Below, piece after piece: positions 1,161 to 63,646 of a DNA stretch of 64,000 bases. The translations under genes and the position numbers were made by a program. The DNA is taken from positions 60,368-124,367 of the forward strand of contig SNVD02015934.1 in NCBI GenBank assembly GCA_013180625.2. Reading direction: 5' to 3'. The number at the start of each line of letters is the position of its first letter. The stretch's first letter is position 1. The DNA comes from Boswellia sacra. Its lineage: Eukaryota; Streptophyta; Magnoliopsida; Sapindales; Burseraceae. The notes under the pieces are model-generated. The model ran no database searches. It was given only the letters and a program-made list of their open reading frames with translations, and was not told where the DNA came from.

Positions 1161-12181
<11,021 letters not shown>

Positions 12182-16401: not shown

Positions 16402-18420
16402 ATGCAATTTTGGCAAGATTCTCAAGACCATTGGAAGGTACCCGAGACAAACCATGATTATTACCCAACTTTAGCTGCTACGAGAAACCCATCTGAGACC
16501 CAAAATCCACCTGAGAACAACCATGACGAACAACATGACTTGATTGAAGTAACTGAAAAACATGACTCAACCGAAGTACCTGAAAATAAAAATCCTGAAT
16601 CACTTCCAACAATTCCACTTGTAACTATATACTACCTTCAAAACAAACTAAGTTTTATTCGAGACAAAAATGACCTCAAGAGATGATAAAGCATCATCAA
16701 GTTCCTGAACAAAGCCAATAACCCAACCCGATTCTGAAAACTCCGGGTAACACTATCCTTGAGCCTACTCTTGAAAATAATTCTCTTAATCTTGATGTTA
16801 CTATAGCTCTCAGGAAAGGAGTCAGAAAATGTACACCACATCCTATTAGGCAGTTTGTTTCCTATGAAAGTCTATCTCCTCAATTCCAAGCTTTCACTAC
16901 AAATATCTCCATTGTGGAGATCCTGAAGTCGATCTATGAGGCACTAAAAAAACCAGAGTGGAAGGCGGCTATTGGAGATGAGATTAATGCCTTGAAGAAA
17001 AATGGTGTGTGGGAACTGTTTGAACTACCTCAATGTAAACAACCAGTAGGCTGCAAGTGGCTCTTCAATATCAAATATAAACTAGATGGAACTGTGGACT
17101 ACTTCAAAGCTAGGTTGCTCGCTAAGGGGTTTACTCATTCCTATGGGTTGGATTATTAGGAGAATTTTGCTCTAGTTGCAAAACCTAACTCTGTTTGTGT
17201 ATTATTGTCTCTTGCAGCTAACTATGATTGGCCTCTTTTTCAGTTAGACGTCAAGAACTTTTCTCAATGATGATTTGGAAGATGAAGTTTATATGGAGAC
17301 TCCTCCTGGATTTGAGAGACCTACTAATGCTAATAAAGTGTGTAGGTAGCGAAAATCTTTATATGGCCTTAAGCAATCCCTTCGAGCATGGTTTGAAAAA
17401 TTCAAAAAGGTAATTAAGAAGCGTGGTTATACTCAAGGTCAAGCCAATCACACTCTTTTCATCAAGCATTCACAAGATGGTAAGATAGCAATACTTATTG
17501 TCTATGTGGATGACTTTATTCTAACAGGAGATTATCTAGAAGAATTGAACTAGATTGAAGAAAGTTCTTGCCAGTGAATTTGAAGTTAAGGACCGACGCA
17601 ATCTAAAATATTTCCCAGGGATGGAGATAGCTCGGTCTAAAAGAGGAATCTCAGTTTCACAAAGAAACTATGTCCTAGTTTTGCTTGAGGAGACAGGAAT
17701 GTTGGGTTGTAAGCCAGCAGATACTCCTATGGAGTCAAATTATAAACTGGGATTGAAGAAAAATTATGCACCGGATGACAAAGGGAGATACTAGCGCTTG
17801 GCAGGCAAGCTTATTTATCTATCACATATTAGGCTAGATATTAGCTTCCGCGTGAGTGTGGTAAGCCAATTCATGAATAGTCCTAATGAGAGGCATTTAG
17901 AAAGCTATTTACAGGATCCTCAGATGTTTAAAGATGACTCCAGGAAAAGGATTATTCTTTAGCAAAGGATACAGTAGGAGTACTCAGGTCTTCTCAAATG
18001 TTGACTGGGTAGGATTTGTTACCGATAGAAGGTCTACTACTGGTTATTGTATGTACATATGGGGGAATCTTGTAATTTGCAGAAGTAAAAAACAGGTTGT
18101 TGTTGCCAGAAGTAGTGCCACGGCTGAGTATCGTGCTCTAGCATTGTGCATATGCGAAGGTATGTGGTTAAAAAGGTTGTTAGGGGAACTTGGAGTTACA
18201 ACCAATAACTCAGTGACAGTTTATCATGATAATTTAGCAGCTATCAACATTGTAAAGAATGCAGTTCACCATGTCGAACGAAGCATGTTGAGCTTGATTG
18301 TCACTTCATCAAGGAGAAAGTTGAACAAGGAATACTTGAGTTATCCTATACATCTAATACAACTTAAGTAGCTGATGTTTTTACAAAATCACTGCCAAGA
18401 GTGAAATTTGATGGGCTTAT
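16402..18420 (+). pseudogene. Copia RT and RNase H remnant
   Basis: The fragments, in order, are the polyprotein linker, RT start (PEWKAAIGDEINALKKNGVW, VGCKWLFNIKYK, LLAKGFTHSYGLDY), the LDVKN motif near 17250, a YVDDF polymerase box near 17506, then KYFPGMEIARSKRG, and RNase H with DRRSTTGYC and SSATAEYRAL. Several in-frame stops (for example near 17157, 17346, 17551 and 17792) and frameshifts break it. Gag, protease and integrase are missing. After 18371 the frame breaks again, and a short purine-containing tract leads to the 3' LTR at 18467. This is a decayed copy with no coding function. Confidence 0.85.
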
Positions 18421-26584: not shown

Positions 26585-26627
<43 letters not shown>

Positions 26628-26632
26628 CGTGC

Positions 26633-26674
<42 letters not shown>

Positions 26675-26758
26675 GTGTGTGCGTGCATGCGTGCGTGTGC
26701 GTGCATGCGTGCGTGTGCGTGCGTGCGTGTGCGTGCATGCGTGCGTGTGCGTGCGTGC
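26585..26758. repeat. GT / GTGC microsatellite
   Basis: About 175 bases of (GT)n with interspersed GTGC and GCATGCGT units, purest at the left and increasingly GTGC-rich at the right. Alternating purine and pyrimidine throughout could favour Z-DNA. The open frames over it, rich in Cys and Val or His and Thr, are artefacts. Confidence 0.95.
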
Positions 26759-27120: not shown

Positions 27121-27505
27121 CGACCTTTTACGGCGGACCAAAACTGTGGTAAAAAGTCTTTTATGGCAGTCCAACGGCAGTTTTAGTCCGTCGTATAAAA
27201 TGGCACCGTAAAAGGCATTTTGACTTTTTAGTGTGGTTTTAGCCCACCGTAAAAGCTTGTTAACCGCGGTCTACTCACCCGCCGTAAAAGGTTGTGGTGT
27301 GGTCTAATTTATTTACGACGGTTTTATTACCCGCCGTAAAATATTGTTAAACGACGTAAATGGTTGTGGTGTGGTCTAAGTTATTTACGATGATTTTCTA
27401 GCCCACTGTAAAAGATTGTTAACTGCCGTAATTGGTTGTGGTGTGGTCTCACAACGGAATGGATTTATTTACGGTGGTTTCATGGCCCACCGTAAAAAGT
27501 GTAGA
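27121..27505. repeat. Subterminal tandem repeats of the second CACTA element
   Basis: Three units of about 70 bp start with TTGTGGTGTGGTCT (near 27291, 27366 and 27434). Each carries TTTACGACGG or TTTACGGTGG, then CCCGCCGTAAAA or CCCACCGTAAAA. Many CpGs of the motif have become TpG or CpA compared with the younger array at 22155-22490. Confidence 0.8.
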
Positions 27506-27883: not shown

Positions 27884-28226
27884 CTAATTCTCCTTCTCAT
27901 TTGTTGTTGCAAAGTCAATGTTGACACGATTTTGATGTGCACTTGAAGCATATGGAACTGGAGCCTAAGATATTTTGGAAGATTTAGAAAAACTTATAAT
28001 CCTAAATAGTTTCAATCATCAACAGCTTATAATTATTAAAAAAATAAAGTAATCATGTTGTCACTTGGGTTTAGACTCAATGTACTACATATAGCATTGT
28101 GATAAATAGTTAGCAAATACAACTATATTGCTAAAGGCGAGTTCACCAACTACATATTCTCAATGCAATTCGCAATTAAAATCATCAATCAAATCAACCT
28201 CTCACCAGCTTCATGAATTAGATAGT

Positions 28227-29565
28227 TGATGAACACTTAAATATGTATATTTAATAAGAGCTTAATTCATCATATTGCATTAATAGTATCATTAAATTCC
28301 ACAACTTAAGCATATTTGTAGTCTTTACATCTTTTGAATTAACTTTCTCTCAATTTCGATTTTGATGTAGGTTCGATAAATTGGGCATAACTTTCTATTT
28401 ATAAATCAGAATGGTGCAAATCTTAATGTTTTGGAAAGATGATTAAAGTATTTACAAGATTGTATTTCACATGCATCATCAAATTCGGGCTCTTAGTGGA
28501 TCAAAAATGGGCTTCTATAGTCTTGGCCCAGCCTGACCATGCCTTAGTATTTTGATCATATCTCTCAAAATACGTATCCAAATTGTACAAATCAATATGT
28601 CCTAGAAAGATGAGAGAAATATCTACAACTTTCATGAAGACATGTGATTAAAATGCTCGATAATGCAATGTCAAAATTGGTAGTCAAATTGGTGCACCTA
28701 ATGATCCCAATTGTCAAAGTTAGTTCACCTAATATTTGACAACTATTCCTTTGTAATTTGACAAGTTTGCCCTTAAATGTATCTATAAATAGAAGTGCCT
28801 TGTGATCCATTAGGGCATCTTGACCTTTGCTGGGATCCTTTGTTATTGTGTTTTTCTCTCTTGTATTTTTATGTTATTAATGAATTCCCTTTTTCTTATA
28901 ATTTGTTTTCTTTCTCTTATAAAGTTTTCTAATTTCTCTTTTGCAAAGGTGAAAAGGTGAAACCCTTGATATGAGATTTTTCTAACCCTTTGATATGTGC
29001 TTAATAATCATAATCTTTTGTTGTTTATTATATATGATTTATATTTATTTTCTTAATCAATCTTGACACCACTCGTAAAGTAGAGGTCTTGATCTATTGT
29101 AGACAATCCTTGGCACATCAAATGCTTGGATCCTTTTTAGATGTCGTATGGTTCTTCCTTACCGACATGAATCTAGTTAGGAATCTTGATTTGTTGTTGA
29201 CATATGGAGATTGGCACATTGGATGCTTGAACCTATTTACAAGAAGTGGAATAAATATTGGTAACGAAACAAATATAATTCATATAACTAAATGTTTTAC
29301 CTATCCTTATTTGATATATCAAAGGCGGATCCCCTAATCTTAGCTTTCATTATTATTGTGTTAATTCCTTTTACTTGCGTATTTTAATTATTTTCATCTA
29401 TTATTGACATTATCTTGTCATATCTTTGAATAATTCATATCATATTTGCTTACTTTTAATTTGTAGCGCTAAAATCCCCTTTCTCATGGATCGACCCCGG
29501 TCTCACCAGGTTTATTACTTCGACACTCCTATACTTAGGAGATAATCCTATTTTCGGATGTGTCA
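28227..29565 (+). repeat. 5' LTR of Athila-like copy 1
   Basis: A 1339-bp LTR that aligns along its length with 36608-37966 and with the complement of 59121-60650. No ORF of interest. A TATA-like CTATAAATAGAAG sits near 28782-28794, a plausible promoter. Confidence 0.92.
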
Positions 29566-29571
29566 AGTTTT

Positions 29572-29589
29572 TGGTGCCGTTACCGGGGA
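29572..29589 (+). other. Primer-binding site, Athila type
   Basis: TGGTGCCGTTACCGGGGA lies six bases after the LTR. It differs at two positions from the TGGCGCCGTTGCCGGGGA form of Athila elements, thought to be primed by tRNA-Asp. Both differences are C-to-T or G-to-A. Confidence 0.8.
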
Positions 29590-29684
29590 AGGTGAAAATT
29601 GGCGTGCAAAATTGTAAGTTTTCTCATTTTAGATCTTAATTTTTTCTTTACGAAATCCCTTCTTTTCTGGCGGAGACCCCTCGT

Positions 29685-30749
29685 GTGTTCATCTTTTCTT
29701 CTCTTTTCTTTTTTCTTTCTTGCATGAAAATTTGGTCACGAACATCTAGTGGTAGATTTGTTAGAAAAACATCATCTTTCTTAGAAAACATGACCAACAA
29801 TCTAGTGAAAAGGTTCACGGATGAAGGGGACAATCGTTCCCAACAAAATGATCAGAACCAACCAAGAACCCTCAAAGATTACATGAATCCGGTAAGGACT
29901 AGTGCACCATCTTGTGTAGTTTCTCCTCCCGATTCAATCCATTTCAATTTCAAGCCAAGTTTTGTTCGACTTCTACCCACCTTTCATGGCCTCGATATAG
30001 AGAACCCATATTCGCACTTAAAAATCTTTGAAGAGGTGTATAACTTCTACAGTGACCTAAATTGTAGCATAAACACCATTAGGTTAAAGCTTTTTCCTTT
30101 TTCCTTAAAAGATAAAGCTAGAATATGGCTACAAAATTTGAGGATGAATTCCATCAATTCATGGGATGAGATGAAACAACAATTTTTGAAAAAAATTTTT
30201 CCTACCCATATAACAAATTCTCTTAAAAGACAAATTTCCAATTTCGTTAAAAAACAAGGGGAAACCTTTTACCAATGTTAGGATAGGTATAGGAAACTAC
30301 TTAACACCTGTCCTCACCATGGTTTTGAAACTTGGAGAATAGTTGCATACTTCTATAAAGGGTTAACACCTCAAGATAGGCAACTAGTGGAGTTAATGTG
30401 TAATGGAGAATTTGGAGATAAAGACCCTGAGGAAGCAATTGACTACCTAGATTCCTTGGCAGAAAAGGCACAAAATTTTGACACTGCTGGCACTTATGAG
30501 GTACCAAGCAAGGCCTTAAACTCGACATCCAATAGAGGCATTTACAACCTTAAGGAAGACCATGACCTTCAAGCCAAATATGCATCCCTAGCTAGAAAAT
30601 TCGAGGCTTTAGAGATAAAAAAGAGTGGTCAATTGAATTCTATTCAAAAAACTGTCTGTAACATTTGTAATGACAATGACCATTCTACTGATGATTCCCA
30701 ACTTTGCCTGCCTTTAGGGAATGTCTCCATGAGCAAGCCAATGCCTTGA
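29685..30749 (+). pseudogene. Athila-like gag, interrupted by a TAG
   Basis: A single frame from 29685 to 30749 with one TAG at 30279-30281. Plausible starts are the Met codons near 29724 or 29790. Features in order: RTLKDYMNP, LPTFHGLDIENPYSHLKIF, the capsid core with LFPFSLKDKARIWL and PTHITNSLKRQISNF, then after the stop PHHGFETWR, a YNLKE-like linker and a partial CX2C zinc knuckle. At the stop, relatives carry Trp, so TGG to TAG is likely. Right after NPYSQTYNPSW-type repeats the sequence jumps to pre-RT sequence near 30830, and no protease is present. Gag would form the particle core. Confidence 0.85.
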
Positions 30750-30836
30750 ACACTTTCAAAAGGCCAAATCACAATCCATACTCACAAACCTACAATCCCA
30801 GTTGGAGAAATCATCCATACTCACAAACAAGGTAAG

Positions 30837-33617
30837 TTGATACATGTACTTAAAAGGCATAAAAATGCAATCGGATCGACTTTAAAAGACATAAAAGGCA
30901 TTAACCATTTGATTTGTACACATAGAATACATTTAGAAGAAAATGCCAAAACATCCCAACAACCTCAAAGGAGATTAAATCCCCATATGAAAGAGGTGAT
31001 TAGGGCTGAAGTTCTTAAACTACTTGATGTGGGAATTATCTACCCGATTTCTGATAGTAAGTGGGTTAGCCCTACACAAGTAGTACCTAAGAAATCTGAC
31101 ATTACAGTAGTAAAAAATGAAAAGAGTGAATTATTGCTACCTCGAGTCTCATCTAGTTGGAGGATGTGCATTGATTATAGAAAATTAAATGTTATCACCA
31201 GAAAAGACCATTTTCCCTTACCTTTCCTTGACCAAATTCTTGAAATAGTAGCAAGGCACTCCTACTACTGCTTTCTTGATGGATATTCAGGCTATTATCA
31301 AATTTTCATTGCACTCGAAGAACAAGAAAAGACCACATTCATGTGCCCCTTCGGCACTTTTGCATTTAGGAGAATGCCTTTTGGACTTTGCAACGCCCCA
31401 ACCACTTTTGAAAGATGCATGTTAAGCATTTTCAGTGACATGGTTGAGCATTGTTTAGAAGTTTTTATGGATGATTTATTTATCTTTGAAAACTCTTTTG
31501 ATAATTGTCTTGAAAACTTAGAAAAAGTCCTAAAAAGGTGTGAAGAAAAAGGTCTTATTTTGATTTGGGAAAAATGACATTATATGGTCACTTTGGAAAT
31601 TGTCTTAGGTCATGTGGTGTCTTCTAAGGGAATTGAAGTGGACAAAGTAAAAGGCGAATTAATTTCCCATTTGCCTCCACCAAAAACAGTCAAAGAAGTC
31701 CGTTCATTCTTAGAACATGCTGGATTTTATAGGAGATTCATAAGAAATTTTAGTGCTATATCTAAACCTCTTTGTAACCTCTTAATAAAAGACACTTCTT
31801 TTGAATGGACTCAAGAATGTCGAAATGCCTTTGATAAGTTAATTGGACTTTTGACAACTGCTCCAATTATGCAATCTCCTGATTAGTCTTTGCCTTTTGA
31901 AGTGATGTGTGATGCAAGTGACTATGCCGTTGGTGCTATCTTAGGACAAAGAAAAGAAGGTAAGCCTTATGTGATATACTATGCAAGTAGGACTTTAAAT
32001 GATGCACAAATGAATTATACAACAACTGAAAAAGAACTACTTACAATAGTATTTACATTAGACAAATTTCGATCGTATTTAATTGATTCTCCCACGATTG
32101 TTTACACTGACCATGCAGCTATAAGATATTTAATGCCTAAACAGGATGCAAAACCTAGATTGATACGGTGGATCTTATTGCTACAAGAATTCAACATCAC
32201 AATAAAGGATAAGAAAGGAGCCGAAAATGTCATTGCAGATCATCTTTCAAGACTAACGACAGAGACATTAATTAAAACTTCACCTATCAATGATTGTTTT
32301 CCTGATGAATTTTTATTTTTCGTTGTTGCTGTACCTTGGTTTGCTAACATTGTAAATTTCCTTGCAACAAGAAAAATGCCACCTCATTGGAATGCTCAAA
32401 ACAAAAGAAAGTTTTTGACCGAGGTGAAAAATTTTTATTGGGATGACCCATATCTGTTCAAATATTGTCTAGACCAAATAATTAGAAGATGCATACCTGA
32501 CAATGAGATAATTAGTGTCATTAATTTTTGTCATTTGGAAGCACGTGGAGGACATTTTTCATCTAGAAAAACAGCTGCTAAAATCTTGCAATGTGGATTT
32601 TATTGGCCCACCTTATTTAAAGATGCACATACATTTTATAAAACTTATGAAAATTGCCAAAAATTGAGATCCATTTCAAAAAGAAACATGATGCCTTTGA
32701 ATCCCATTCTTGTTGTTGAAATCTTTGACTGTTGGGGTTTGATTTTATGGGACCTTTTCCACTATCATTTGGTTTTGTGTACATTCTTGTTGCAGTAGAT
32801 TATGTTTCAAAATGGGTCGAGACAATTCCGTGTCGAAACAATGACCACAAAACAGTTATCAAATTCTTGAAAGAGAATATCTTGTGTAGATTGAATTCCT
32901 CGAGCCATTATTAGTGATGGGGGTACATATTTTTGTAACAAACCATTTGAAAATTTAGCGAAGAAATATGGAATAACCCATAAAATTTCTACACCTTATC
33001 ACCCGCAAACAAGTAGACAAGTTGAATTAGCTAATAGGGAGATAAAACAGATCTTAGAAAAAACGGTTAACCCAAATCGTAAAGATTGGTCTTTAAGACT
33101 CAAAGATGCATTTTTGGCTTACCGAACTACTTTCAAAACATCATTGGGAATGTCTCCTTATAGATTAGTTTATGGAAAACCTTGTCACTTCCCTGTGAAA
33201 ATTAAGCATAAAGCTTATTGGGCCATCAAAACATTTAACACAAACTTGAATGATGCTTGCAAGTTACGTAAACTTCAACTGAGTGAACTTGAAGAAATCA
33301 GAAATGAGGCTTATGAAATTTCTAAAATCTACAAAGAAAAAATGAAGGTTTTTCATGACAAATTCATTGTTATAAAATCTTTTGAACCTTCACAAAAAGT
33401 TCCTTTGTATGACTCAAGATTGCACTTGTTTCCTGGTAAACTTCGGTCTCGTTGGACTGGGCCTTTCATTGTTAAAAATGTTTTCCCTCATGGAGCAGTT
33501 GAAATTGAGAACCTAAAGAATGGTAATGTGTTTAAAGTTAATGGACAACTGTTAAAACCATTCTTTGAAAATTTTGACCAAAATGAAGAGTCCATTGCTT
33601 TAGTCGATCCTTTTTAA
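30837..33617 (+). pseudogene. Athila-like pol: RT, RNase H, integrase, with stops and frameshifts
   Basis: RT runs from about 30950: WVSPTQVVPKKS, WRMCIDYRKLN, FRRMPFGLCNAPTTFERCM, and the catalytic box VFMDDLF. A TGA at 31575-31577 replaces the usual Cys before HYMV, and a TAG at 31884-31886 replaces the usual Trp before SLPFEV. RNase H follows ([26 protein letters not shown]). Integrase has an HHCC finger ([16 protein letters not shown]), the first catalytic Asp in GFDFMGPFP, the second in ISDGGTYF and the Glu in [10 protein letters not shown]. Frameshifts occur near 32740 and 32900. The end, with [21 protein letters not shown], is open from 33114 to the stop at 33617. Integrase is downstream of RT, which defines Gypsy. 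Confidence 0.92.
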
Positions 33618-33936
33618 AGATTGATTTTTCCCAGTCAAGTGGCAGATACGGTACTCTGTCACTTTTTAAGTCGGTTTTTCAGTTCCCTAAAAACTGTTAG
33701 TCACCTTGCATCCATTTTCTTTTCTTCTCTCTCATTTTCTTCACACGGATACCATTCTCTCAAAATTGCACAAACATTTTCCTTCTCTTCGTCAAAATGA
33801 TTTGCTTAAAATTTAGAAAGCTCGCGCAGAGAGACTAAGGATGTTGATGTGTAAGGGTATGCCTGCTGATGTATGATGGTTAATTGAAGCCAAGGTTTGA
33901 TTTTCTTATGAATTTTTAGATAATCTTGTTTCTCAC
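33618..33936 (+). promoter_or_regulatory. Conserved CT-rich leader between pol and the accessory genes
   Basis: This stretch has a counterpart in copy 2 (63329-63646). It contains TTTTCTTTTCTTCTCTCTCA near 33716-33736 and an acceptor-like CACATGCCAG just before the Cys-rich ORF. Conservation outside coding sequence suggests a leader, internal promoter or splice signal for the downstream genes. That role is inference. Confidence 0.4.
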
Positions 33937-34293
33937 ATGCCAGGTATGGGAAAAAGCTTTTACGCCGAAAAGCGAAAAGCGAAAAGGTTATAAGTTTGTC
34001 CCAAATGTGCAAGATGAACTTGTAACCAGCGTTGCCGCTCCTTGGGATATTTGTCTAATAATCAAGAGGATAAACTACAGTTCATTAAGAATGGACTGAG
34101 TAGGGAGTCTTTAGATGATATCCGAATGACTCTTGAGACGCATTCTTATGGACTTGTGCAGTGTGAAATTTTTAAACTGTGGACACAATTCCGAGATGAG
34201 CAGGAACGCTATAGTCTTTGGAATCTGACTCAAAACGACCACGTTTGTCAATTTATAAGAAAACTGGATAGGAAGCATATCCTTAACTCATAG
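33937..34293 (+). pseudogene. Accessory basic Cys-rich ORF, copy 1 (two stops)
   Basis: A 118-codon frame from ATG 33937 to TAG 34293, the same length as the intact copy at 62972-63328. A TAA (33991-33993) and a TGA (34015-34017) stand where copy 2 has Gln and Trp. The N-terminal third is very basic and is followed by four Cys (C-x2-C-x4-C-x3-C). The C-terminal two thirds (GYLSNNQEDKLQFIKNGLS, then LWTQFRDEQERY, CQFIRKLD) look helical and charged. I know no Gypsy protein like it. The basic stretch plus CxxC recalls nucleic-acid-binding Cys-rich proteins of some plant RNA viruses (carlavirus type), but later Cys spacing differs and I would not assert homology. Confidence 0.6.
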
Positions 34294-34549
34294 AAGGTGT
34301 TTAAGCCGTTTCTAGACGTAAAACCAGAGGAAGATGTGAGCCACAGTCACAACTACATGTACATATGCATGCGTGCCATCATTTTTGAATTTTAATGCCT
34401 TATAACTGTCATTTTAGAATTTGTATCTTTTGTTTGACTTATGGTGTCTTATTTCATCATCTTTCTTTTGAATTTCTATGCATAATTGTCAAATTTGTCA
34501 ATAAGCAGCCAAGCTACCTATTTAGATGTCATCATTAGCATACCTTTTT

Positions 34550-34612
34550 ACACTCCATAAATACCACATTTCTTGTTCTCTTCTTCACACATAGATAGAG
34601 CGTTGCATAGAC
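34550..34612 (+). promoter_or_regulatory. TATA-like core and short leader before LOG, conserved in both Athila copies
   Basis: ACTCCATAAATACCACAT near 34551-34568, followed by CTCTTCTTCACACATAG and then the LOG start codon about 55 bases further on. Copy 2 has the same order on its minus strand (complement of 62682-62720). The spacing fits a plant TATA box and short 5' UTR, so LOG may have had its own transcript. Not tested. Confidence 0.45.
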
Positions 34613-35240
34613 ATGGAGGAAACTTCAAAACATCGAATCCAAAGGATCTGTGTATTCTGTGGATCTCGACCGGATAAAAGTGAGGAGTTTGTAGAAGTAG
34701 CAAATTATCTTGGTAAGTTACTGGCTGAAAGAAAGATTCATGTGGTTTATGGGGGAGGTAGCCTCAGATTAATGGGTTGTGTGTCAATAGCTGCACATAT
34801 AGGAGGTAGTCAAATTTTAGGAGTTATTCCTAAAGCTTTGGCTATAGAAAGCATTGTTGGAAAAACGGTTGGGACGGAGTTACAAGTCTCCTCTATGCAT
34901 GAACGCATGACACATATGCTCATCAATTCAGATGCTTTTATTGCTTTACCAGGTGGCTTTGGTACTCTTGAAGAAATTTTTCAAATTGTCTCTTGGGCCC
35001 AACTGAATCTCCATAAAAAACCCATAGGTTTGTTGAATGTTAAAAGATCCTTTAATAAGTTTTGTTGATGTAGCTGTGAAACAAAATTTTATCCCTCATT
35101 CGGCGAGAAAGATCCTTGTTTCTACCACTACCGCTAGTGAACTACTTAACAAGTTACAAGCAGTCGAGTATCAACCTGACCCAGCCATCACTAAATTTAA
35201 TTGGTCAGGGGGCAAAACAAAAAGTACAAATTGGATCTGA
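34613..35240 (+). pseudogene. LOG-like: LOG-family cytokinin riboside 5'-monophosphate phosphoribohydrolase carried by a retrotransposon (copy 1)
   Basis: An intronless frame from ATG 34613. CVFCGS at residues 13-18, VVYGGGS at 44-50, GVIPKAL near 70-76, MHER at 95-98 and PGGFGTLEE at 113-121 match the LOG nucleotide-binding and active-site signatures. Arg98 and Glu121 fall at the positions known to be catalytic in LOG enzymes, which release free cytokinin bases from their nucleotides. The residue after MHER is Met where plant LOGs usually have Lys. Codon 144 is followed by a frameshift: about 8 bases present in copy 2 are missing near 35040. The second frame (35037-35240) supplies the normal C-terminal third, ending near FNWSGGK. 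Rejoined length would be about 212 codons, typical for LOG. Host LOG genes have several introns, so this is a processed capture. Not functional as it stands. Confidence 0.9.
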
Positions 35241-36607
35241 ATCTCCGTTTGTAATTTTTTCTTGTCCTTTATTTTATTTTTAGCATTTTATTTTATGAGT
35301 CTTTCAGGTTATCTCTCTCGAATAACAGAAGCTTCAGGTAATGTCTCCTATACTTTATCTCTCTACATTCAAATATTGAGGACAATGTTTCATTTGGTTG
35401 GCAAGGAAGGATAGTAGACATAAATGTGTTTTAAATTTTCTTTTTCTTGCCAAAAGAAAAAAAATGAGTTAGTAATTAGATTTAGAGTACGATGTAAGGA
35501 GTTCAAATCCTCTTGAGACGCATTCTAGGTCAAGAATGACAGAGTAGGGAGGGCCAGTTTGAACTCTTGAAACACACTCTATCCAATTTGTCATTTTGCT
35601 TTGATTTTGCATTTTTAGGACTCATTTTAGTTAACTTGATATTATTTAGTTTTGATTTTTGAATTTTATAACAAGGAGGTCTTATTCATTTCACTTTGAA
35701 TTTTTCAAATCTATGAACTCTCACAACCCTATTATTTAATAAACTGTGGCTTATGTACTCGTTAAGCAAGTATTCATGAACTTTTCTACACACACACACA
35801 TACCTTGATGCATGATTATGGGTGGCGAAATGAAATGTTGCAATATTGGAGTCTTTTGTTTTGTTTAGGATAACAACAAAAGGAAGGGGAAAGTAAAAAA
35901 AGAAAAAGAAAAAGAAAAAAGTGAAAGCAAAAAAAAAAAGAAAAAGAAAAAAAAAAGAGCAATTGTGGATAGGTTTGATCTCGTAGCCTCTTTAATTCGA
36001 GCAATTAAGCCCGAGGGGTGCCTCAATACCTAATTTCCTAAGACCAACTGGTTTGGGAGCTATTGGCCCAAAGCTCGCTACATAGATTAAGGAGAAAGCT
36101 TAATGGGATTGAACATCGCACTATCCACAAGTTTCTAAGCAAAAATAAAGTATCGGTAACCTGAGTCGTTAAGCTCATAGGGGTGTCTTAATACCTGATG
36201 CCCTAATACCAACTGGTCTGGGAGTCATTAGCCTAAGGCTCGCTGCATAGGTTAAAGATATATTCTTTCAAAAAAAAAAAAAAGAGAAGAAAGAAAAAAT
36301 ATATATATATAAAATGAATGAATACCCCCTACCTAAGGTTGTTAGCCTTAACAAATCTTAGAACCGATATGGCTTCCTTCTAATAAGCCTCATAGTCATG
36401 TGTCGAATGAGCATTAAAAGAAGGTTTATTGATATCTTGACTGAAGGGTACAGGAGTCATTTCAAAAAAATCGGTTGAGAGTTTGTTTATTTGGATAAAA
36501 TCAAGTAGAGTGCAATGATGACCACCTTGGATGTAAAATTCTATAAATCACTTCTAAATAATAACGCTTTAATTACTAGGGACTAGCAATAAGCTGGTTG
36601 GGGGTTG
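35241..36607 (+). other. Non-coding 3' region of Athila-like copy 1
   Basis: About 1.4 kb between LOG and the 3' LTR. It contains the short palindromic ATTGAGGACAATG at about 35376-35388, seen in this position in many plant Gypsy elements; A-rich purine tracts (35880-35960); and a diverged direct repeat of about 95 bp (36006-36100 and 36170-36260) sharing AGGGGTG, CTCAATACCT or TTAATACCTGAT, ACCAACTGGT and GCTCGCT. The end (36590-36607, AAGCTGGTTGGGGGTTG) is the polypurine tract. The counterpart in copy 2 is 60651-61986. Confidence 0.7.
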
Positions 36608-37966
36608 TGATGAAGACTTAAATATGTATGCTTAATAAGAGCTTAATTCATCATATTGTATTAATAGTGTCATTAAATTCCTCAACTTAAGCATATTTGT
36701 AGTCTTTACATCTTTTGAATTAACTTTCTCTTAATTTCAGTTTTGATGTAGGTTCGGTAAATTGGGCATAACTTTCTATTTATAGATCAAAATGGTACAA
36801 ATCTTAATATTTTGGAAAGATGATTCAATTATCTACAAGATTGCATTTCACAAGAATCATCAAATTCGGGATCTTAGTGGACCACAAATGGGCTTGAAGT
36901 GAACCCATCTATAGTCTCAGCCCAGCCTGACCATGCCTCAGTATTTTGACCATATCTCTCAAAATAAGTATCCAAATTGTACAAATCCATATGTTCTAGA
37001 AAGATGAGAGAAATATCTACATCCTTCATGAAGACATATGATTAAAATACTCAATAGTTCAATGTCAAAATTGGTGGTCAAAGTGGTGTACCTAATGATC
37101 CCAATTGTCAAAGTTAGTTCACCTAATATTTGACAAATATTCTTTTGTAATTTGACAAGTTTTCCCCTAAATGTATCTATAAATAGAAGTGCCTTGTGAT
37201 CCATTAGGGTATCTTGACCTTTGCTGGGATCCCTTGTTATTGTGTTTTTCTCTCTTGTATTTTTATTTTATTAATGAATTCCCTTTTTCTTATAATTTGT
37301 TTTCTTTCTCTTATAATGTCTTTCTAATTTCTCTTTTGCTAAGGTGAAAAGGTGAAACCCTTGATATGAGAGTAAGGATTTTCTAACCCTTTGATATGTG
37401 CTTAATAATCGTAATCTTATGTTGTTTATTTTATATGATTTATATTTATTTTCTTAATCAATCTTGACACCACTCGTAAAGTGGAGGTCTTGATCCATTG
37501 TAGACAATCTTTGGCACATCAAATGCTTGGATTCTTTTTAGATGTCGTATTGTTCTTCCTTACCGACATGAATCTAGTTAGGAACCTTGATTTATTGTAG
37601 ACATATGGAGATTGACACATTAAATGCTTAAACCCATTTACAAGAAGTGGTATAAATATTGGTAACGAAAGAAATATAATTCATATAACTAAATGGGTTA
37701 CTTATCCTTATTTGATATATCAAAGGCGGATCCCCTAACCTTAGCTTTTATTATTATTGTGTTAATTCCTTTTACTTGCGTATTTTAATTATTTTCATCT
37801 ATTGTTGATATTTTCTTGTCATATCTTTGAATAATTCATATCATATTTGCTTACTTTTAATTTGTAGCGCTAAAATCCCATTCCTCGTGGATCGAACCCG
37901 GTCTTACTAGGTTTATTACTTCGACACTCTTATACTTGGGAGACAATCCTATTTTCAGATGTGTCA
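36608..37966 (+). repeat. 3' LTR of Athila-like copy 1
   Basis: A 1359-bp LTR. It starts TGATGAAGACTT, ends AGATGTGTCA and is followed by ATAGC, the near-match of ATAGT before the 5' LTR. Confidence 0.92.
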
Positions 37967-40900
37967 ATAGCAACTCTTTTAATAATCACGTATAGAGTAA
38001 ATGAAAGTTAAGTAAATACCAGATGTCGTATAGGTGGTGGCAACTGCTCTTCAATGTCTGAAAATTTCTATTGCAAAAAGTTGTACAACTACATATTGTA
38101 GTCCTTCAATTCTTTGTTCTCCACTCACATTTCATGTAATTCTTGATCCAATTTCTCCACATCAATAGACTGAGATGAACATTGACTTATGACAGTAGTT
38201 GGAGAAGGACCATGGCCATATGTGCGGGCATAACCACGATGATCACGTCCCTATACATCTTGAAATACTCGTTCTGCTGTAGCTTCGGTTTGTTGCTCAA
38301 TAGGTATTCTAGACATGCCTTCTTTTAGTTGACTCTACAAAATGATGAAAACAACTGTAAGTGAAAGCATAAAAAAAGGATTGTGTAACCAATTTAAAAC
38401 AAATTGTAAGTGCATATAATTTAGTTTAAAAAAGTACAATTATTTCAGCACTCTCAGTGTCTACTACTGTTTTTTAACTATTTAACACAAGTTTAAAGAT
38501 GCATCATTTCTTTCTCTATTTAACTATTTGAAATTTATGTAAAAAAGATATTCTAGACTTTACAACTTCATTTGGGGACCTGAAAAACCTTGACCTTCTA
38601 GAGAGTTGCCAACATTCTCTTCTCTTTCTTACTTTCTTTCTCATAGGAAACAAAAGAAGTACATTACTAATGAAAAAAATGAATTACAATTGTATCTATA
38701 TTATTTATGCTATGGTTTCCTTATTCAAATGCCCTTTAATTCCGGAACTTCGGTTTGTTCTACCCTTAATGTTTTCTTGTTCATTTGTAAAATGATTAGT
38801 TGTGTTTTTGTTTCTTAATATTAATTAGAATTTCTGATTTTTCTCCCTACTTTCCAATTGTTTTGGTTTGCAAAGAATACAACACAGCAGGTGCACGTCA
38901 TTAATATTAATTAGTTGTGTTTTAGTTTTTGATTCTTGAAGTTTATTAATAATGGTTGGTATTGTTTTTGTTATTTGCTTCCATGTTTTCCTTCAGATCC
39001 ACAAATCATTGGTTTACCCTTGGGGTGCATTTTAATATTTGCTACTTATTGTTCTTGTTATTTGTACTTTTATATTTCCCAGATTATTTAAAATTTTGTA
39101 TTTAAACATCAAGCCGACCCTAATAGACACTGCAAATTTAGTGATGTTTGAAGCCCAAGCTTTTTGTAATTGGAAGTTTCTCTTCTTTTGATCAATTATC
39201 ATATAAAAGATGTTCCATTTAAAATTAAGTCACTTGAGCCAATTATATCAAATGATTTGTGGATTACGAATATTTCAGCATCAAAAAGTTATCTTGAAAA
39301 CTTAAACCAGACAATCATAATCGCAGGCATATAATGTCATGCAATTCTTCTATACAATTATATGGCTGTCACATAGCCAAGTTCAAGTCATGTGGCACAT
39401 GCAAACCATTTCCTATAAATAAATAAAATAAATAAAAAGATGCTCCTAGCTAGCTCAAGAACCTAGAGCAGACTCTTTAAGCATAGATCTATAAACTCAT
39501 CCATTCACATATCAACCAAAACAAACACACAAATCAAATCAACAAGATTATAATATCTGAACAAAAATCCAAGTCTCATGAAACACAAACAAAATCACTC
39601 AAATACTGATTACCATCTTAGAGAAACACAAAACTATTCCAAAATTTAAGCAGCAAAATCTTAAACAGCTCTCTTCAAGCTCAATAAACAACACTTGAGA
39701 AGCTCATAAGAACCCACCAAACCCACAAAATAACAAACAAATCAACTGCTAAAATCCCTTCAAGTTAACATATTTTCTGCTCAATATTTACTCCCAAAAT
39801 CTTTACCAATTAAAAAAAAAACTTTAATGATTATTACAGTGTTTAAGTGCTTGCTTTAGCTCAAGAACAACCTTAGTTTCCTATTTTGACCGCTTAGAAA
39901 TTCAATTAGATGCTCGAGAATGGAAGTTTCTATTTTAAACTAGCAAAAATCAGTCATAGATAGGAAAACAAACAAGAATAGCATATACAAACAAGAAAGG
40001 ATGAGCTAGGCTAGCCATAGTTGTTGCATTTAAAAATAAATAAAGAGATACACGATTAGAAGGATGTGTGTTCAATCTCTCTAAGATGTGAAGCAACTAT
40101 AAGTAATCCTTCCCTAATCTATGTAAAATCTGTTTTGACATTTTTGTGAACAATTACTTGGATCTCTTTGTGCACGACTTGTTCACTTGCATCTACTTTC
40201 TCTTTTAATGAAAGTCTCTTTATTTCGGCTCTTAAAAAATAATATAATAATAATAAAAATAAATAAATAAATAATATTTTCCATGGTTTGTGTGGCAACT
40301 GTACGAGGAGCTACTTTTAGACATTTTGTGAAGGTCAGTGTATTCTGAAATGTAGAAAAGCCATAACTTTTAACTTCAAGAAGATCAACCTGAGTTCAGT
40401 CCTAAGTCATGGGTGAAGAGAAGGAATTTGTGTGTTAGTGTGACCACTAATTACTCTCCTTTGCTTGCTTTCAGGTGTTAAATCATTTACAATTACATAG
40501 TTAATATTGATTCTTAATATTAATGATTGTTGTTGGAACGAAACTAGGTTTTCTTCTTTTGTGTGTGTGTGTGTGTGTGTTTGTGTTTGTGTTTACATGC
40601 ACATAAATAAAATCTTTTAGACACTATGTAGCATGCTATGGAGTACTGTGGTTAATTTTGAGTGCATTGTCAATCGCATTTTGAAAAAACTGAGCCCTTA
40701 AATTTGACAACAACCAAAATTCAAGAATGCCCCTAATTCTTAAACTGTGGGCTGATTCATTGGGCTGGTCTCTTTAGTGGGATTATTTTGTGTGCTGATT
40801 TTAATAGTTCCATTTCAAAGCCATTCGGTTGGTTTACTGGGCTAGTTTTTATAGTGGGATTGTTTTGTGTGTTGATTTATTGGGATGGTTTCATTGGTGA

Positions 40901-54540: not shown

Positions 54541-56119
54541 CCACTTGTGTTTGCCACTCCTTTATTTCTACAATCAACATTCAAAGAGTAACTTTTTGGT
54601 ACCCAAATGTTCTTAGGTCCTTGGGGGTTAGTTATAGTACTTTTTGGAATCCATATTTGTTTCAAATTAGGATTTCTCTTAATATAGCAAGAATGCACTT
54701 TGTGTCCTTTTCTTCCACAATAAGTACATGAATGATTAGGATTATTCTTAGAAAATGCATGAAAAAAATAGTTTTTAAAATACTTTTGATTTTTATGAGT
54801 TTTATATCCTAACCCTGTTTTATAAAAAACACACCTTTGGTTTTGTAACATAGAATTCAAATTTTTTGTGCTTTTTGTAAAACTATCAACAATATTTCTT
54901 AAATCATTATTTTCCTTTTTTAAAACAACATTTTCTTTCTGCAATTTATCAAAATCCTTTTGTTTTAAAATGTCATTTTCAGTTTTTAATAAATGTATTT
55001 GACTTTCCAAACTTTTAAAATCTTTTTGCTTTAAAATTTCATTTTCATTTTCTAAAGCTTCATTTGTTTCCACCAACTCTTCTAATTGAGATGACATGAT
55101 TTTTGACTTCTTTTCGAAAGCATTGATTTTTGAATTTTGTTTATCAACTTGCACATGTAAATTTTGGAATGCTTTAAGTAATTCATCATATGAAAGCTTA
55201 GGATCATAGTTTAGAGTACTTACCTCATATTCTCTTAAAGCCATGAAGCACATTTTTGCCACTTCGCAATCTTCTTCTTCAGTGGAGCTAGACTCACTAT
55301 CATCCCAATTTGTGGCTTTCATTGCTTTGGATTTCTTGTCTTGACTCTTGAAGTAAGGACAATCCATTTTTACATGTCCTGGTTTTTTGCACTCATTGCA
55401 AATGATTCGATCATTTTTCTTATCTTGCTTTGAGGTTTGCCCTTTGTACTCCCTTCTAGAATTCTTTTTAAATCCTTGATTTCTTCTAATCATCCTTTTT
55501 AGCTTTCTTGTGATGAATGCAAGATCTTCATCATCTTCTTCGTCATCGGAGTCATCTTATTCTTTTGTTAAAGATTTGAAAGCTATATTTTTCTTTTTCT
55601 TGAACTCTTCTTCAAGGTGATTTCATGAGTCATGAGAGAACTCATAAGTTCTTCTAATGGTCGTTTGGTGAGGTCCTTTACTTCTTAAATTGTCGTCACC
55701 TTTGGCTCCTAAGATTTTGGTAGACACCTAAGAATCTTTCTCACCATTTCAACTTTAGAATAATATTTACCAAGAGATTTCAAACCATTGACAATATCCG
55801 TAAATCTAGTAAACATTTCAGAAATTGATTCATCCGGTTTCATCTTAAAAAGCTCATAACTATGAATTAGCATAGTAATTTTAGATTCTTTAACTTGACT
55901 AGTTCCTTCATGAGTTACTTCAAGTGTATGACATATTTCTTGTACCGTAGAACAAGTAGATATTCTATTAAACTCATTTCTATCTAGAGCACAATATAAC
56001 ACATTCATAGCTTTAGCATTCAAACTCAATTTCTTTTTATCATCTTCACTAAACTCTTTAGCTTCTTTAAGCATGCTTTCTCCATTTTCAATTTTGGTAG
56101 GAACAAAAGGTCCTTCCAA
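54534..56119 (-). pseudogene. Copia gag, broken
   Basis: The first part (56119 to 55709) has the UBN2-type capsid with VTHEGTSQVKESKI, YELFKMKPDESISEMFTRF and VEMVRKILRCLPKS, ended by a TAG where relatives have Trp. Related coding continues, with further breaks, to the second part (55493 to 54534). That has a basic start, a zinc knuckle CNECKKPGHVKMDC (CX2CX4HX4C), a D/E-rich segment, a long coiled coil (repeats ILKQKDF, LENENEILKQ), and a second CTYCGRKGHKVHSC knuckle. It loses frame just before protease. Gag would package element RNA; this copy cannot. Confidence 0.88.
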
Positions 56120-56296
56120 AACAATAGACTATAAATCATAATAAAAAGATTGCAAGAAAATACTCATTCTAGTTTTCCAATAAGAGTAATCACTTCCATT
56201 AAAAATAGAGGTCTAGAGATAGTCAACAGAAGAAGTTGGATTAAAAGTTGCCATAGCTCAAAATCGGTTAAGATTTTAAAAAAAATGAGCAACCTT

Positions 56297-59120: not shown

Positions 59121-60650
59121 TGACACATCCGAAAATAGGATTGTCTCCCAAGTATAGGAGTGTCGAAGTAAAAAAACCCGGTGAGACCGGGGTCGATCCA
59201 CGAGGAAGGGAATTTAAGCGTTACAAATTATAAGATAGGCAAATGTGATATGGATGATTCAAAGAAATAACAAGAGAATATCAATAAATATGTAAGATGG
59301 TAGGCGGTATTACCGACCATTCAAATATAAAACAAAAAGCAAGAGGAGGTAAAACCATCCATGGAAATAGGTGGTATAACCAACCATAGTAAATTAAAGA
59401 ACAATTTCATAAGGTGGTAGAACCTACCATAGTAAATAAAATAAAAAGTTCATAAATAATAAAATAATTAAAATACAAGAGGAATTAACACAATAACAAT
59501 GAAGGCTAAGGTTAGGGGATCCGCCCTTGATATTTCAAATAAGGATAATTAACCCATTTTAGTTAGATGAATTATATTTTTTTCATCACCAATATTTATA
59601 CCACTTCTTGTAAATGGGTTCAAGCATCCAATGTGCCAATCATCATATGTCTACAACAAATCAAGGTTCCTAACTAGATTCGTGTCGGTAAGGAAGAACC
59701 ATACATCATCTAGAAAGGATCCAAGCATTTGATGTGCTAAGGATTGTCGACAATGGATCAAGACCTCCACTTTACGAGTGGTGTCAAGATTGATTAAGAA
59801 ATTAAATATAAATCATGTTGAATAAACATTATAAGATTAAGATTATTAAGCACATATTAAGGGTTAGAGAATCCTTATTCTCATATCAAGGGTTTCACCC
59901 TTTCACCTTAGCAAAAGAGAAATTAGAAGAACATTATAATAGAAAGAAAATAAAATGCAAGAAAAAGGAAATTCATTAATAACATAAACACACAAAACAC
60001 AATACAAGATCCTAGCCAAAGCCAAAATGTTCCAGCCAAGGCCAAGATGCCCTAATGGGTCACAAGGCACCTCTATTTATAGATACATCCAGGGGCAAAC
60101 TTGTCAAATTACAAGGGCATAATTGTCAAATATTAGTTGTAAATATCTTTGACAATTGGGATCATTAGGCACCGACTTTGACCATCAATTTTGACATCGA
60201 AATGTTGTGAATTTTAATCACATGTCTTCATGAAAGTTGTAGATATTTCTCTCAGCTTTCTAGAACATATTGATTTGCACAATTTGGATACGTATTTTGA
60301 GAGATACGGTCCAAATACTGAGGCCTGGTTAGACTGGGTTGAGACTGTAGATGGTTCAATTCAAGCCCAATTTTGGTCCACTAAGAGCCCGAATTTGATG
60401 ATTCTTGTGAAATGCAATCTTATAGACAATTAAATCAGCTTTCCAAAACATTAAGAATTGCACCATTCTGATCTATAAATAGAGAGTTATGCCCATTTTA
60501 CCGAACCTGTAACAAAACCAAAATTAAGAGAAAGTTAATTCCAAAGATGCAAAGACTACAAATATGCTTAAGTTGAGGAATTTAATGACACTATTAATGC
60601 AATATGATGAACTAAACTCTTATTAAACATGCATATTTAAGTGTTCATCA
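59121..60650 (-). repeat. 3' LTR of Athila-like copy 2
   Basis: A 1530-bp LTR. On the minus strand it starts TGATGAACACTT and ends GGATGTGTCA. An extra block at about 59285-59445, absent from both LTRs of copy 1, holds four units like ATGGTAGGTTCTACCACC. Confidence 0.92.
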
Positions 60651-61986
60651 CACCCCCTAACTAGCTTATTGCTAGTCCCTAGCAATTAAAGCGTTATTAT
60701 TTAGAAGTGATTTATAGAATTTTACATCCAAGGTGGTCATTATTGCACTCTCCTTGATTTTATCCAAATAAACAAACTCTCAACTGATTTTTTTTTTATG
60801 ACTCATGTACCCTTCAGTCAAGATATCCACAAACCTTCTTTTGTGCTCAGTTGACACATGACTATGGGGCTTATTAGAAATAAGCCATATCGGTTCTAGT
60901 ATTTGTTAAGGCTAACAACCTTAGGTAGGGATATTCATTCATTTTATACATTTTTTTTTCTTTTTTTTTTTTTTTGAAAGAATGCATCTTTATACCTAAT
61001 GTACGAGTCCTTAGGCTAATGACTACTAGACTAGTTGGCCTTAGGGCATTAGGTGTTAAGACACCCTACGAGCTTAACAACTTGGGTTGTCGATGCTTTA
61101 TTTTTGCTTAGAAACTTATGGATAGTGCAATGTTCAATCCCCTTTAGCTTTCTCCTTAAACCATGTAATGAGATTTGCGCCAATAGCTCCCAAACTAGTT
61201 GGTCTTAAGGTATTAGGTGTTGAGACACCTCTCGGGCTTAATTATTTGAATTAACGAGGCTGCGAGACCAAACTTATCCACAATTACTTTTTTTCTTTTT
61301 TTTTTTCATTTTTCATTTCATTTTTTTTTTTAAAAAAAACTTTCCCCTTCCTTTTGTTGTTATCCTAAACAAAACAAAAGAACTCAAATATTGCAATATT
61401 TCATTTCGCCACCCACAATCATACATCAAGGTATGTGTGTGTGTGAAGAAAGATTCATAGATACTTGCTTAATGAGCACATAAGCACACAATTTATTAAA
61501 TGATAAGGTTTTGAGAGTTCATAGATTTGAATGATTCAAAGTGAAATGAATAAGACCTCCTTGTTATAAAACTTAAAAAATCAGACTAAGATAATAATCA
61601 AATAAGTCTTCAAAAATGCCCCCAAGAATAAAATGACAAATTGGTTAGAATGGGTTTCAAGAGTTCAAACTGACCCTTCATACTCTGCCATTCCTGACCC
61701 AGAATGCGTCTCAAGAGGATTTGAACTCTTTACACCGCACTCTAAATCTAATTACTAACTCGCTTTTTTTTTTTGCAAGAAAAAAATAAAATTTCAAGAC
61801 ACACTTATATCTACTATCCTTCCCCCCCAACCAAATGAAACATTGTCCTCAATGTTTAAATGTTAAGAGATAAAGTATAGGAGCTTACTGAAGCTTCTGT
61901 TATTCAAGAGGATGCCTACAAAAGACTCAAAAAAGAACATGCAAAAGTAAAATAAATAAGGGACAAGAAAACATTACAACGGAGAT
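60651..61986 (-). other. Non-coding 3' region of Athila-like copy 2
   Basis: The counterpart of 35241-36607. It contains the same diverged direct repeat (around 61010-61090 and 61180-61260, with GACCAACTAGT or ACTAGTTGG and TAAGACACC words), the A/T tracts, a small GT run (61436-61443) and the complement of ATTGAGGACAATG at about 61840-61852. No coding frame. Confidence 0.65.
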
Positions 61987-62654
61987 TCAATCCAATTATG
62001 ACACTTTTTGTTATTGCTGCCCTCCTGCCCAAAATCTAATTTTGAGTACTCAGCATGGGTCCGGTTCATACTCAAACTTCCTTGTAAATTTGATCAAGAT
62101 AGCTCTACCAGCGAAGTGGGCAGAATAAGGATCTTTCTCGCTGAATGAGAGATAAAATTCTGTTCCACAGCTGCATCAACAAAACTTATCAAAGGATCAA
62201 AGAAATTTTTGACATTCAACAAACCTATGGGGTTTTGATGGAGATTCAGTTGGGCCCAAGAGGCAATTTGAAAAATTTCTTCAAGAGTGCCAAAGCCACC
62301 TGGTAAAGCAATAAAGGCATCTGAATTGATGAGCATATGTGCCATGCGTTCATGCATAGAGGAACCTGTAACTCTTTCCCAACCGTTTTTCCAACAATAC
62401 TTTCTACAGCCAAAGCTTTAGGAATAACTCCTAAAACTTGAGTACCCCCTACATGTGCAGCTGTTGACACACAACCCATTAACCCGAGGCTACCTCCCCC
62501 ATAAACCACATGAAACTTTCTTTCAGCCAGTAGCCTATACCAGATAATCTCGCTACTTCCTACGAACTCTATCACTTTTAACCATGCGTCGAGATCCACA
62601 GAATACACATATCCTTAAATGGATTCGAACGTGTTGAAGAATTCCCCCCTCCAT
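61987..62654 (-). pseudogene. LOG-like: LOG-family gene carried by a retrotransposon (copy 2)
   Basis: On the minus strand from ATG 62654. ICVFCGS, VVYGGGSLGLMG, GVIPKALAVESIVGKTVG, MHERMAHML and ALPGGFGTLEE are all present, but in different frames: frameshifts occur near 62600, before YRLLAERK, and near 62360 between KELQV and MHER. The segment around PIGLLNVKNFFDPLISFV is intact here and shows what copy 1 lost. The C-terminal part after about 62100 is decayed. The substrate pocket has Met after MHER, as in copy 1. Both copies share this and other sequence, so the gene was in the family ancestor. No introns. Not functional. Confidence 0.88.
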
Positions 62655-62971: not shown

Positions 62972-63328
62972 CTATGAGTTGGGGATATGCTTCCCATCCA
63001 GTTTTCTTATAAACTGGCAAACAGGGTCGTTTTGAGTCAGATTCCCAAGACTATAGCTTTCCTGCTCATCTCGGAATTGTGTCCACAAATTAAAAATTTC
63101 ACGCTGCACAAGTCCACAAGAATACGTCTCAAGAGTCGTTCGGATATCATCCAAAGACTCCTTACTCAGTCCATTCTTGATGAACTGTAGTTTATCCTCT
63201 CGATTGTTAGACAAATATCCCAATGAGCGGCAACGCTGGTTACAAGTCCATCTTGCACATTTGTGACAAACTTGTAACCTTTTTGCTCTTCGCTTTTTGG
63301 CATAAGAGCTTTTTCCCAAACCTAGCAT
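62972..63328 (-). CDS. Accessory basic Cys-rich protein, intact copy (118 aa)
   Basis: ATG 63328 to stop at 62972. Residues 6-18 are strongly basic (KSSYAKKRRAKRL) and could serve as nuclear signal or RNA-binding arm. Cys21, Cys24, Cys29 and Cys33 form a C-x2-C-x4-C-x3-C cluster able to bind zinc. The rest is charged and probably helical (IKNGLSKESLDDIRTTLE, LWTQFRDEQESY). Copy 1 has the same length and end. It is not a known Gypsy protein. The basic arm followed by CxxC recalls Cys-rich nucleic-acid-binding proteins of carlaviruses, several of which are silencing suppressors. This resemblance is a pattern match only, and the later Cys spacing differs. An acceptor-like TATGCTAG overlaps the start codon, so upstream coding joined by splicing is possible. 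Confidence 0.65.
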   Translation of the reverse strand: MLGLGKSSYAKKRRAKRLQVCHKCARWTCNQRCRSLGYLSNNREDKLQFIKNGLSKESLDDIRTTLETYSCGLVQREIFNLWTQFRDEQESYSLGNLTQNDPVCQFIRKLDGKHIPNS

Positions 63329-63646
63329 ATGGGAAACAAGATTATCTGAAAACTCACAAGAGAATCGACCTTGGCTTCAATTTTCCCATCTTAACTCAGC
63401 AGAATTAATACCCTTACGCATCAACACCTTAGTCTGTCTGCCAGCTTATAATAAATTTTTAAGCAAAATCCATTTTGAGGAAAGAGGAAAATGTGTGGTT
63501 CAATTTAGAGAGAATGGTATCCATGTGAAGAAAATGAGAGAGAAGAAAAGAAAATGGATGCAAGCAACAGTTTTTAGGGAACTGCAAAACCGACTTTAAT
63601 AGTCACGGAGTACCGTATCCGCCACTTGACCGGGAAAAATCAATCC
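63329..63646 (-). promoter_or_regulatory. Conserved CT-rich leader, copy 2
   Basis: The counterpart of 33618-33936, with TTTTCTTTTCTTCTCTCTCA on the minus strand near 63530-63555. It is conserved although it does not encode protein in either copy. Confidence 0.4.

Follow-up and report, generated by a model that had tools for sequence, protein, structure and literature searches.

The data support the presence in Boswellia sacra of an Athila-type family of LTR retrotransposons that carries, in many copies, a LOG-derived gene 3' of its integrase. The family was recognized in the window, the whole 64,000-nucleotide stretch of DNA analysed here. The explanation that we favour, with a probability of roughly 40%, is that this gene is one half of a two-gene accessory module held by an Athila-type Ty3/Gypsy element between the integrase and the 3' LTR. 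The first gene encodes a protein of roughly 185 amino acids related to the Cys/Arg-rich nucleic-acid-binding proteins of plant flexuous RNA viruses (NABP-like), a putative nucleic-acid binder. The second encodes a LOG-fold protein, derived from a plant LOG gene, with an altered substrate pocket and an added tail made of a basic patch and an LxLxL motif; it is a putative nuclear TOPLESS adaptor.

In the window the LOG gene is intronless and lies inside an LTR pair, 3' of the integrase and on the same strand, as the preliminary description had placed it (Table 1). The frame is enclosed by the LTRs, so that a separate pseudogene outside the LTR pair is rejected. The two LTRs of the element (28227-37966) are identical at 1254 of 1360 aligned positions (∼92%; K2P 0.0675), have TG..CA ends and are flanked by ATAGT and ATAGC, which agree at four of five bases. 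Domains above the Pfam cut-offs occur 5' of the LOG gene in the order Gag, reverse transcriptase (RT), RNase H and integrase zinc finger, while the integrase core gave a weak match (rve, 24.1 bits against a cut-off of 32.6 in the piece scanned); LOG lies between the end of the integrase at 33617 and the 3' LTR. No Pfam match to a chromodomain or to an archaeal-type second RNase H was found in the pieces scanned on either side of positions 32796-32894. The latter domain is a mark of the Tat lineage, according to the available portion of PMC6317226. Absence of both domains, together with the Athila-type trait of an extra sense-strand ORF 3' of the integrase, suggests that the element fits the Athila lineage of Ty3/Gypsy. 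This label draws on these domain features and also on an apparent resemblance of the integrase and primer site to those of Athila; the primer binding site itself is presumably of the tRNA-Asp type.

Table 1. Features of the two LOG-bearing elements of the window (window positions)
Feature	Position	Strand	Basis or remark
5' target-site duplication ATAGT	28222..28226	+	3' counterpart 37967-37971 = ATAGC
5' LTR	28227..29565	+	LTR pair alignment
Putative primer binding site TGGTGCCGTTACCGGGGA	29572..29589	+	
gag region, two frames, PF03732 in the first	29640..30749	+	Pfam
Reverse transcriptase region, PF00078	30750..31883	+	Pfam
RNase H and integrase zinc finger, PF17917, PF17921	31887..32795	+	Pfam
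End of integrase core (weak PF00665) and C-terminal part	32895..33617	+	Pfam
Viral-NABP-like ORF, broken copy	33797..34293 (about)	+	
LOG-derived gene, frame broken in window copy 1	34613..35254	+	Pfam, TIGR00730, frame reading
LOG C-terminal tail KYKLDLNLRL + stop, basic patch + LxLxL	35222..35254	+	
Putative polypurine tract	36596..36607	+	sequence
3' LTR	36608..37966	+	LTR pair alignment
Copy 2, viral-NABP-like ORF, 134-aa open piece	62972..63376	-	PF01623, PF05515
Copy 2, LOG-derived gene, broken, approximate ends	61975..62654	-	
Copy 2, 3' LTR, matched as two pieces	59121..60650	-	

The window is mostly made of transposable elements. A Copia-type element at 5536-9863 (minus strand) holds an open frame of 1213 amino acids, in which GAG-pre-integrase, integrase and RT were recognized by eye, and seems only slightly decayed; more Copia-like frames, of RT/RNase H and integrase, were seen by eye at 16722-18371 (plus strand) and 51607-56128 (minus strand). 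A (GT)n-rich array occupies 26586-26757, and a 72-bp tandem repeat (2.3 copies, 27280-27449) lies close upstream of the LOG-bearing element.

The membership of the frame in the LOG family is borne out by matches to PF03641 (window 34595-35065, 96.1 bits, cut-off 27), PF18306 and TIGR00730 (134.2 bits, cut-off 96.35), and by the presence of VVYGGGS, MHER and PGGFGTLEE. The start codon at 34613 stands as first given, while the end moves from 35240 to 35254, since KYKLDLNLRL and the stop are in frame with that ATG and make up the final 11 codons. The frame of this copy is broken and readable in pieces. A second LOG-bearing element, on the minus strand at about 59121-64000, runs off the end of the window at 64000; the two copies are 86.7% identical over 4617 bp, and the LOG gene of the second is broken as well. 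Directly 5' of the LOG start, at 34555-34592, a TATA-like CCATAAATACC comes first, then a run rich in pyrimidines, then ACACATAG; the segment is well conserved between both window copies and might serve as an internal promoter or as a splice acceptor.

The preliminary description supposed that LOG had replaced or supplemented env. Instead, LOG is preceded by a viral-NABP-like ORF, and the pieces scanned gave neither an env-like nor an ATHILA (PF03078) match. In window copy 2 this ORF, open over 134 amino acids, matches PF01623 (29.4 bits, cut-off 20.9) and PF05515 (24.6 bits, cut-off 23), while the two open pieces of the broken ORF of copy 1, scanned alone, gave no Pfam match. From 28 sequences 13 open NABP-like ORFs were recovered (L013 and L018 are one place). 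All ten natural copies scanned exceed the PF05515 cut-off of 23 with 33.9-43.6 bits (best E 4.6e-11, match up to profile positions 109-224 of 227), seven of the ten exceed that of PF01623, and none of seven local shuffles matched either profile. A chance match as the origin of the NABP-like signal is rejected by the shuffles and by the ten PF05515 matches. The protein has a basic stretch followed by a Cys-rich finger, which reads C-x2-C-x4-C-x3-C in the 13 ORFs extracted; the carlavirus finger, given as C-X2-C-X9-C-X4-C (PMC3689765, excerpt), is not found in it, the spacing being shorter.

NABP-like sequence precedes LOG at 23 of the 24 distinct places examined, that is in all 20 genome copies with flanks and in three of four further places (L009, L011 and L014); at the fourth, L008, no NABP-like match lies within about 1.3 kb upstream of LOG. 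The pairing also occurs elsewhere. In a gene model of Acer yangbiense (P0150) an NABP-like part forms a fusion with LOG (65% over 81 aa, E 4e-35), and on contig L002, filed under a bacterial metagenome-assembled genome (MAG), an NABP-like ORF with 71% identity over 131 aa directly follows the integrase. From its content we infer L002 to be a plant-like contaminant of a bacterial assembly. Plant-like Athila integrase was likewise seen on the contigs L002-L007, filed as Nomurabacteria MAG, Solirubrobacter, Geminicoccus, Blastococcus and Modestobacter, which probably reflects plant contamination of those bacterial assemblies. Searches of a viral contig set gave no relative with the LOG query, one 18-residue match with the integrase and no relative with the NABP-like query. 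The leader of P0236, back-translated and compared with the window, gave a best piece that merely equals the highest of 200 shuffles.

Further copies with LOG, some of them intact, are present in the genome of the window (638.6 Mb, 7431 contigs). A PF03641 search returned 10,198 loose candidates, and the best 150, which were scored, all cover the 131 profile positions without an internal stop. Given these 150 stop-free matches among 10,198 candidates, the presence of LOG in the element is not due to chance. A Gossypium LOG7 query, meant to reach the host LOG exons, brought back at least 150 rows (51-54% identity), which have the look of element copies. Twenty copies among the best 150 were taken with flanks for comparison of the module (L010/L016, L012/L017, L013/L018 and L015/L019 are the same places under two labels). 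The module is enclosed by LTR pairs in all five copies whose upstream side was examined, with 1414-1532 bp aligned at 93.1-97.5% identity. RT-RNase H-integrase matches are present in six of the 20 copies; the other 14, of which 13 have one common upstream layout and L019 is the last, have none or only remnants. In six of the 14 (L016, L017, L019, L020, L026 and L035) the sequence examined starts at or close to the 5' LTR end, so that pol is truly absent there, and the common layout suggests that it is absent from the other eight also. A gag match was seen in four of the 14. Despite the missing RT-RNase H-integrase, all 14 keep both the NABP-like and the LOG ORF. Short tandem duplications between the two ORFs were observed in L025, L031, L033, L034 and others, at about 3.3-3.65 kb and further.

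Both genes look preserved by selection, to judge from substitution ratios. The LOG set comprised 216-residue frames with distinct DNA, 16 of 22 extracted; the 22 were drawn from 28 distinct or overlapping locus-derived sequences plus 10 from the Gossypium LOG7 search. LOG shows a dN of 0.229 and a dS of 1.17 between two subfamilies of the genome (ratio 0.196, 28 pairs), a dN/dS of 0.18 within the larger subfamily (91 pairs) and of 0.14 among five pol-less copies (10 pairs), values biased downwards because the copies are intact and come from the best-scoring 150, the bias being least between subfamilies. For the two decayed LOG copies of the window the ratio is 0.66 across 138 codons, and 0.43 when the 107 codons from residue 37 on are taken. 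For the NABP-like gene, comparison with six copies of the same genome yielded a dN of 0.147-0.183 and a dS of 0.81-1.16 for window copy 2, and a dN of 0.213-0.268 and a dS of 0.80-1.09 for L002; its dN/dS is about 0.16-0.29 between subfamilies or species and 0.35 within the genome (66 pairs, the place L013/L018 being counted twice). That the captured genes are passengers without function, open merely through the youth of their copies, is consistent with the decay of the window copies and with LTR pairs 93-97.5% identical, which make the copies fairly young. The LOG ratio of 0.196 at a dS of 1.17, the same cassette in Acer and on L002, and a tail conserved behind a variable linker make such a passenger highly improbable.

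The origin and pocket of the LOG protein were analysed in 277 proteins from three database searches; each contributed its best 120 matches, and the sample therefore follows the queries. Multi-copy clusters among the matches listed have 328 members (Orobanche minor), 244 (O. hederae), 81, 52, 46 and 39. In an unrooted tree of 92 rows (tail columns left out, rows 93% alike dropped), a clade of 64 rows including the window is set apart (100/100) from 28 ordinary plant LOG rows, AtLOG3 and AtLOG8 among them. The clade takes in Reevesia, Diplodiscus, Populus, Paulownia, Melia and Xanthoceras. The preliminary description had inferred a processed host gene; the tree shows no recent copying of this kind but an old element clade common to rosids and Lamiales. 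A recent private capture in Boswellia sacra is rejected by the clade shared with other plants. When the tree is drawn against the ordinary LOGs, the earliest branches are Xanthoceras/Acer-like rows, whose pocket is ordinary and whose end is short though basic; one element-clade protein, P0138, combines an ordinary pocket with the full tail, and nearly all other rows of the clade have both a changed pocket and the tail.

Pocket classes, assigned to proteins of 155-260 aa only (CgLOG numbering), divide 267 rows among the matches listed into 69 with Lys100 and Glu125, 194 with neither and four mixed. The 194 element-type rows, defined by the absence of these two residues, retain Arg99 in 178, Glu122 in 189 and Trp129 in 173 cases, and are consistently hydrophobic at 100 with Gln or His at 125 (among the matches listed). 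Many Orobanche rows among the matches listed (P0230-P0277) have Arg in place of Trp129. The window LOG has Arg99 and Glu122, with Met at 100 and Gln at 125; among the 16 distinct intact frames of the genome, Gln125 is found in all and Lys100 in none. Structure prediction (AF2) gave a confident LOG fold (pLDDT 89.2), to which Foldseek found AtLOG3 (2a33) nearest (E 9.6e-24). In CgLOG, Lys100 and Glu125 belong to the adenine site and the putative prenyl site, and alanine at AMP-binding or catalytic residues, Lys100 listed among them, nearly abolished activity (PMC4979012, available in part).

These pocket data bear on what the element protein does. It had been suggested that an element raising cytokinin would favour division of the cells that carry it. 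A working cytokinin-releasing enzyme is consistent with the retained fold and PGGxGTxxE motif, with Arg99 in 178 and Glu122 in 189 of the 194 rows among the matches listed, and with the low dN/dS of LOG. However, Lys100 and Glu125 are replaced in those 194 of 267 rows, in the window and in all 16 intact genome frames. Their loss, set beside the alanine effects in CgLOG (PMC4979012, excerpt), makes a simple cytokinin activator doubtful, a doubt against which stand the Xanthoceras/Acer-type rows and P0138 with their whole ordinary pocket. This account also leaves the tail unexplained; plain cytokinin activation is less likely, and the cell-division scenario as a whole is regarded as unlikely. 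Alternatively, the protein may be an enzyme whose substrate has changed, perhaps to another (modified) purine nucleotide, and which works in the nucleotide metabolism of reverse transcription. The kept catalytic pair and the consistent replacements at 100 and 125 would fit such a role, although pocket-to-alanine changes in CgLOG lose nearly all activity (PMC4979012, excerpt), the tail is again unaccounted for, and LOG is kept in copies lacking RT. We consider a new substrate improbable also.

The tail separates the element proteins from ordinary LOGs. Among the matches listed of at least 205 aa, an LxLxL end is present in 128 of the 159 full-length rows whose pocket is of the element type versus two of the 64 with an ordinary one; these two are P0138, within the element clade, and P0198, whose LxLxL end looks like chance. 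In 36 rows less than 80% alike, Leu occupies positions -1, -3, -5 and -7 in 33, 35, 33 and 27 rows, respectively, and Lys or Arg occupies -8 and -10 in 33 rows each, while the residues between and before these positions, and the linker, vary. Residues 201-217 of the predicted structure have a pLDDT of about 50 and form an unordered tail outside the confident fold. The Xanthoceras/Acer-type rows end before the LxLxL, and many Orobanche rows among the matches listed have a weakened end, ..IDAFLSL. ORF extraction gave short N-terminal pieces only for L024, L032 and L033, whose tails were not counted as absent. The basic patch and LxLxL have the form of an EAR repression motif; the shortness of LxLxL counts against a role of this kind. 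A tail that is short, conserved, C-terminal and outside the fold might instead dock on the element's own Gag particle, so that both proteins are packaged. Retention of the module in pol-less copies, with a gag match in four of 14, would suit packaging; the basic patch and LxLxL are closer to a known host-binding motif, and Gag docking is judged quite improbable.

The favoured explanation, a module of an NABP-like protein and a TOPLESS adaptor, would account for the tail through the host. LxLxL binds TOPLESS in other plant proteins such as RBE (PMC10942257), and the fungal effector Jsi1 acts on TOPLESS via an EAR motif (PMC7748000), both as given in the available parts of these papers. By analogy we infer that the LOG tail would bind TOPLESS-type co-repressors. 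The LOG-fold protein would then be dimeric and nuclear; cytokinin release would no longer be its main role, its enzymatic role being lost or changed, and TOPLESS binding would alter host transcription, in defence, silencing or hormone responses, to the advantage of the element. Points that count against this explanation are the weakened Orobanche tails, the short ends of the Xanthoceras/Acer-type rows, the ordinary pockets within the element clade, the closer finger spacing, the place L008, the downward bias of the LOG ratios, and the higher ratios of the decayed window copies and of the NABP-like gene within the genome. The NABP-like protein, by analogy with its viral relatives, would bind nucleic acid and may shield element RNA or dampen silencing. 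One carlavirus Cys-rich protein (CRP) suppresses local RNA silencing and another is a transcription factor that causes hyperplasia (PMC3689765, seen in part); the hyperplasia leaves room for the cell-division idea by another route. A reading close to this one, somewhat unlikely in our estimate, makes the pair a virus-type counter-defence kit, in which an NABP relative and a LOG turned nuclear TOPLESS-binding effector would be selected even in pol-less copies.

Two extra ORFs of a plant Gypsy element here have recognizable ancestry and a low dN/dS, which bears on the question of what such ORFs do. The module gives testable predictions through its pocket changes, its LxLxL tail and its putative virus-type nucleic-acid binder; a gene common to LTR elements and plant RNA viruses would also bear on gene flow between the two, in either direction. 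Many intronless genes annotated as 'cytokinin riboside 5'-monophosphate phosphoribohydrolase' among the matches listed are probably element genes.

Steinbauerova et al. (2011) reportedly described two Athila-like elements with similarity to LOGL4. The supposition that no Gypsy lineage with LOG had been described gives way to cases in print: a YgdH/LOG domain is reported from Gypsy consensus sequences of Citrus sinensis, C. clementina and Populus trichocarpa (PMC9289625, which cites Steinbauerova et al. 2011; text available in part). The literature searched (texts of mostly non-subscription papers, including parts of PMC7264820, PMC6317226 and PMC11728184) describes neither the NABP-like ORF nor the LOG tail. 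LOG in Gypsy elements is thus already published, while the virus-like neighbour and the extra tail seem new. The Citrus and Populus elements share the LOG-family extra ORF, and Populus rows fall in the same LOG clade; the NABP-like ORF, the tail and the pocket changes are not mentioned for them in the portion of PMC9289625 available. Orchid Gypsy elements with an AlkB demethylase, in the same portion of that paper, are alike in having an extra enzyme-type domain, but the domain and the plants are others and one domain is added rather than a pair. EAR proteins that bind TOPLESS (RBE, PMC10942257; Jsi1, PMC7748000; each in part) share the LxLxL-type motif with the LOG protein, for which binding is predicted; the LOG protein has no DNA-binding domain. 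With AtLOG3 (2a33) and AtLOG8 (1ydh) the element LOG shares the fold, PGGxGTxxE and Arg99/Glu122; it differs in replacing Lys100, Glu125 and often His97, in its LxLxL tail and in being borne by an LTR element. The viral proteins of Viral_NABP (PF05515) and Carla_C4 (PF01623) resemble the NABP-like protein in profile matches and in the basic stretch with a Cys-rich finger, from which the element protein departs in being encoded by a retrotransposon, in the closer spacing of its finger and in its longer C-terminal part.
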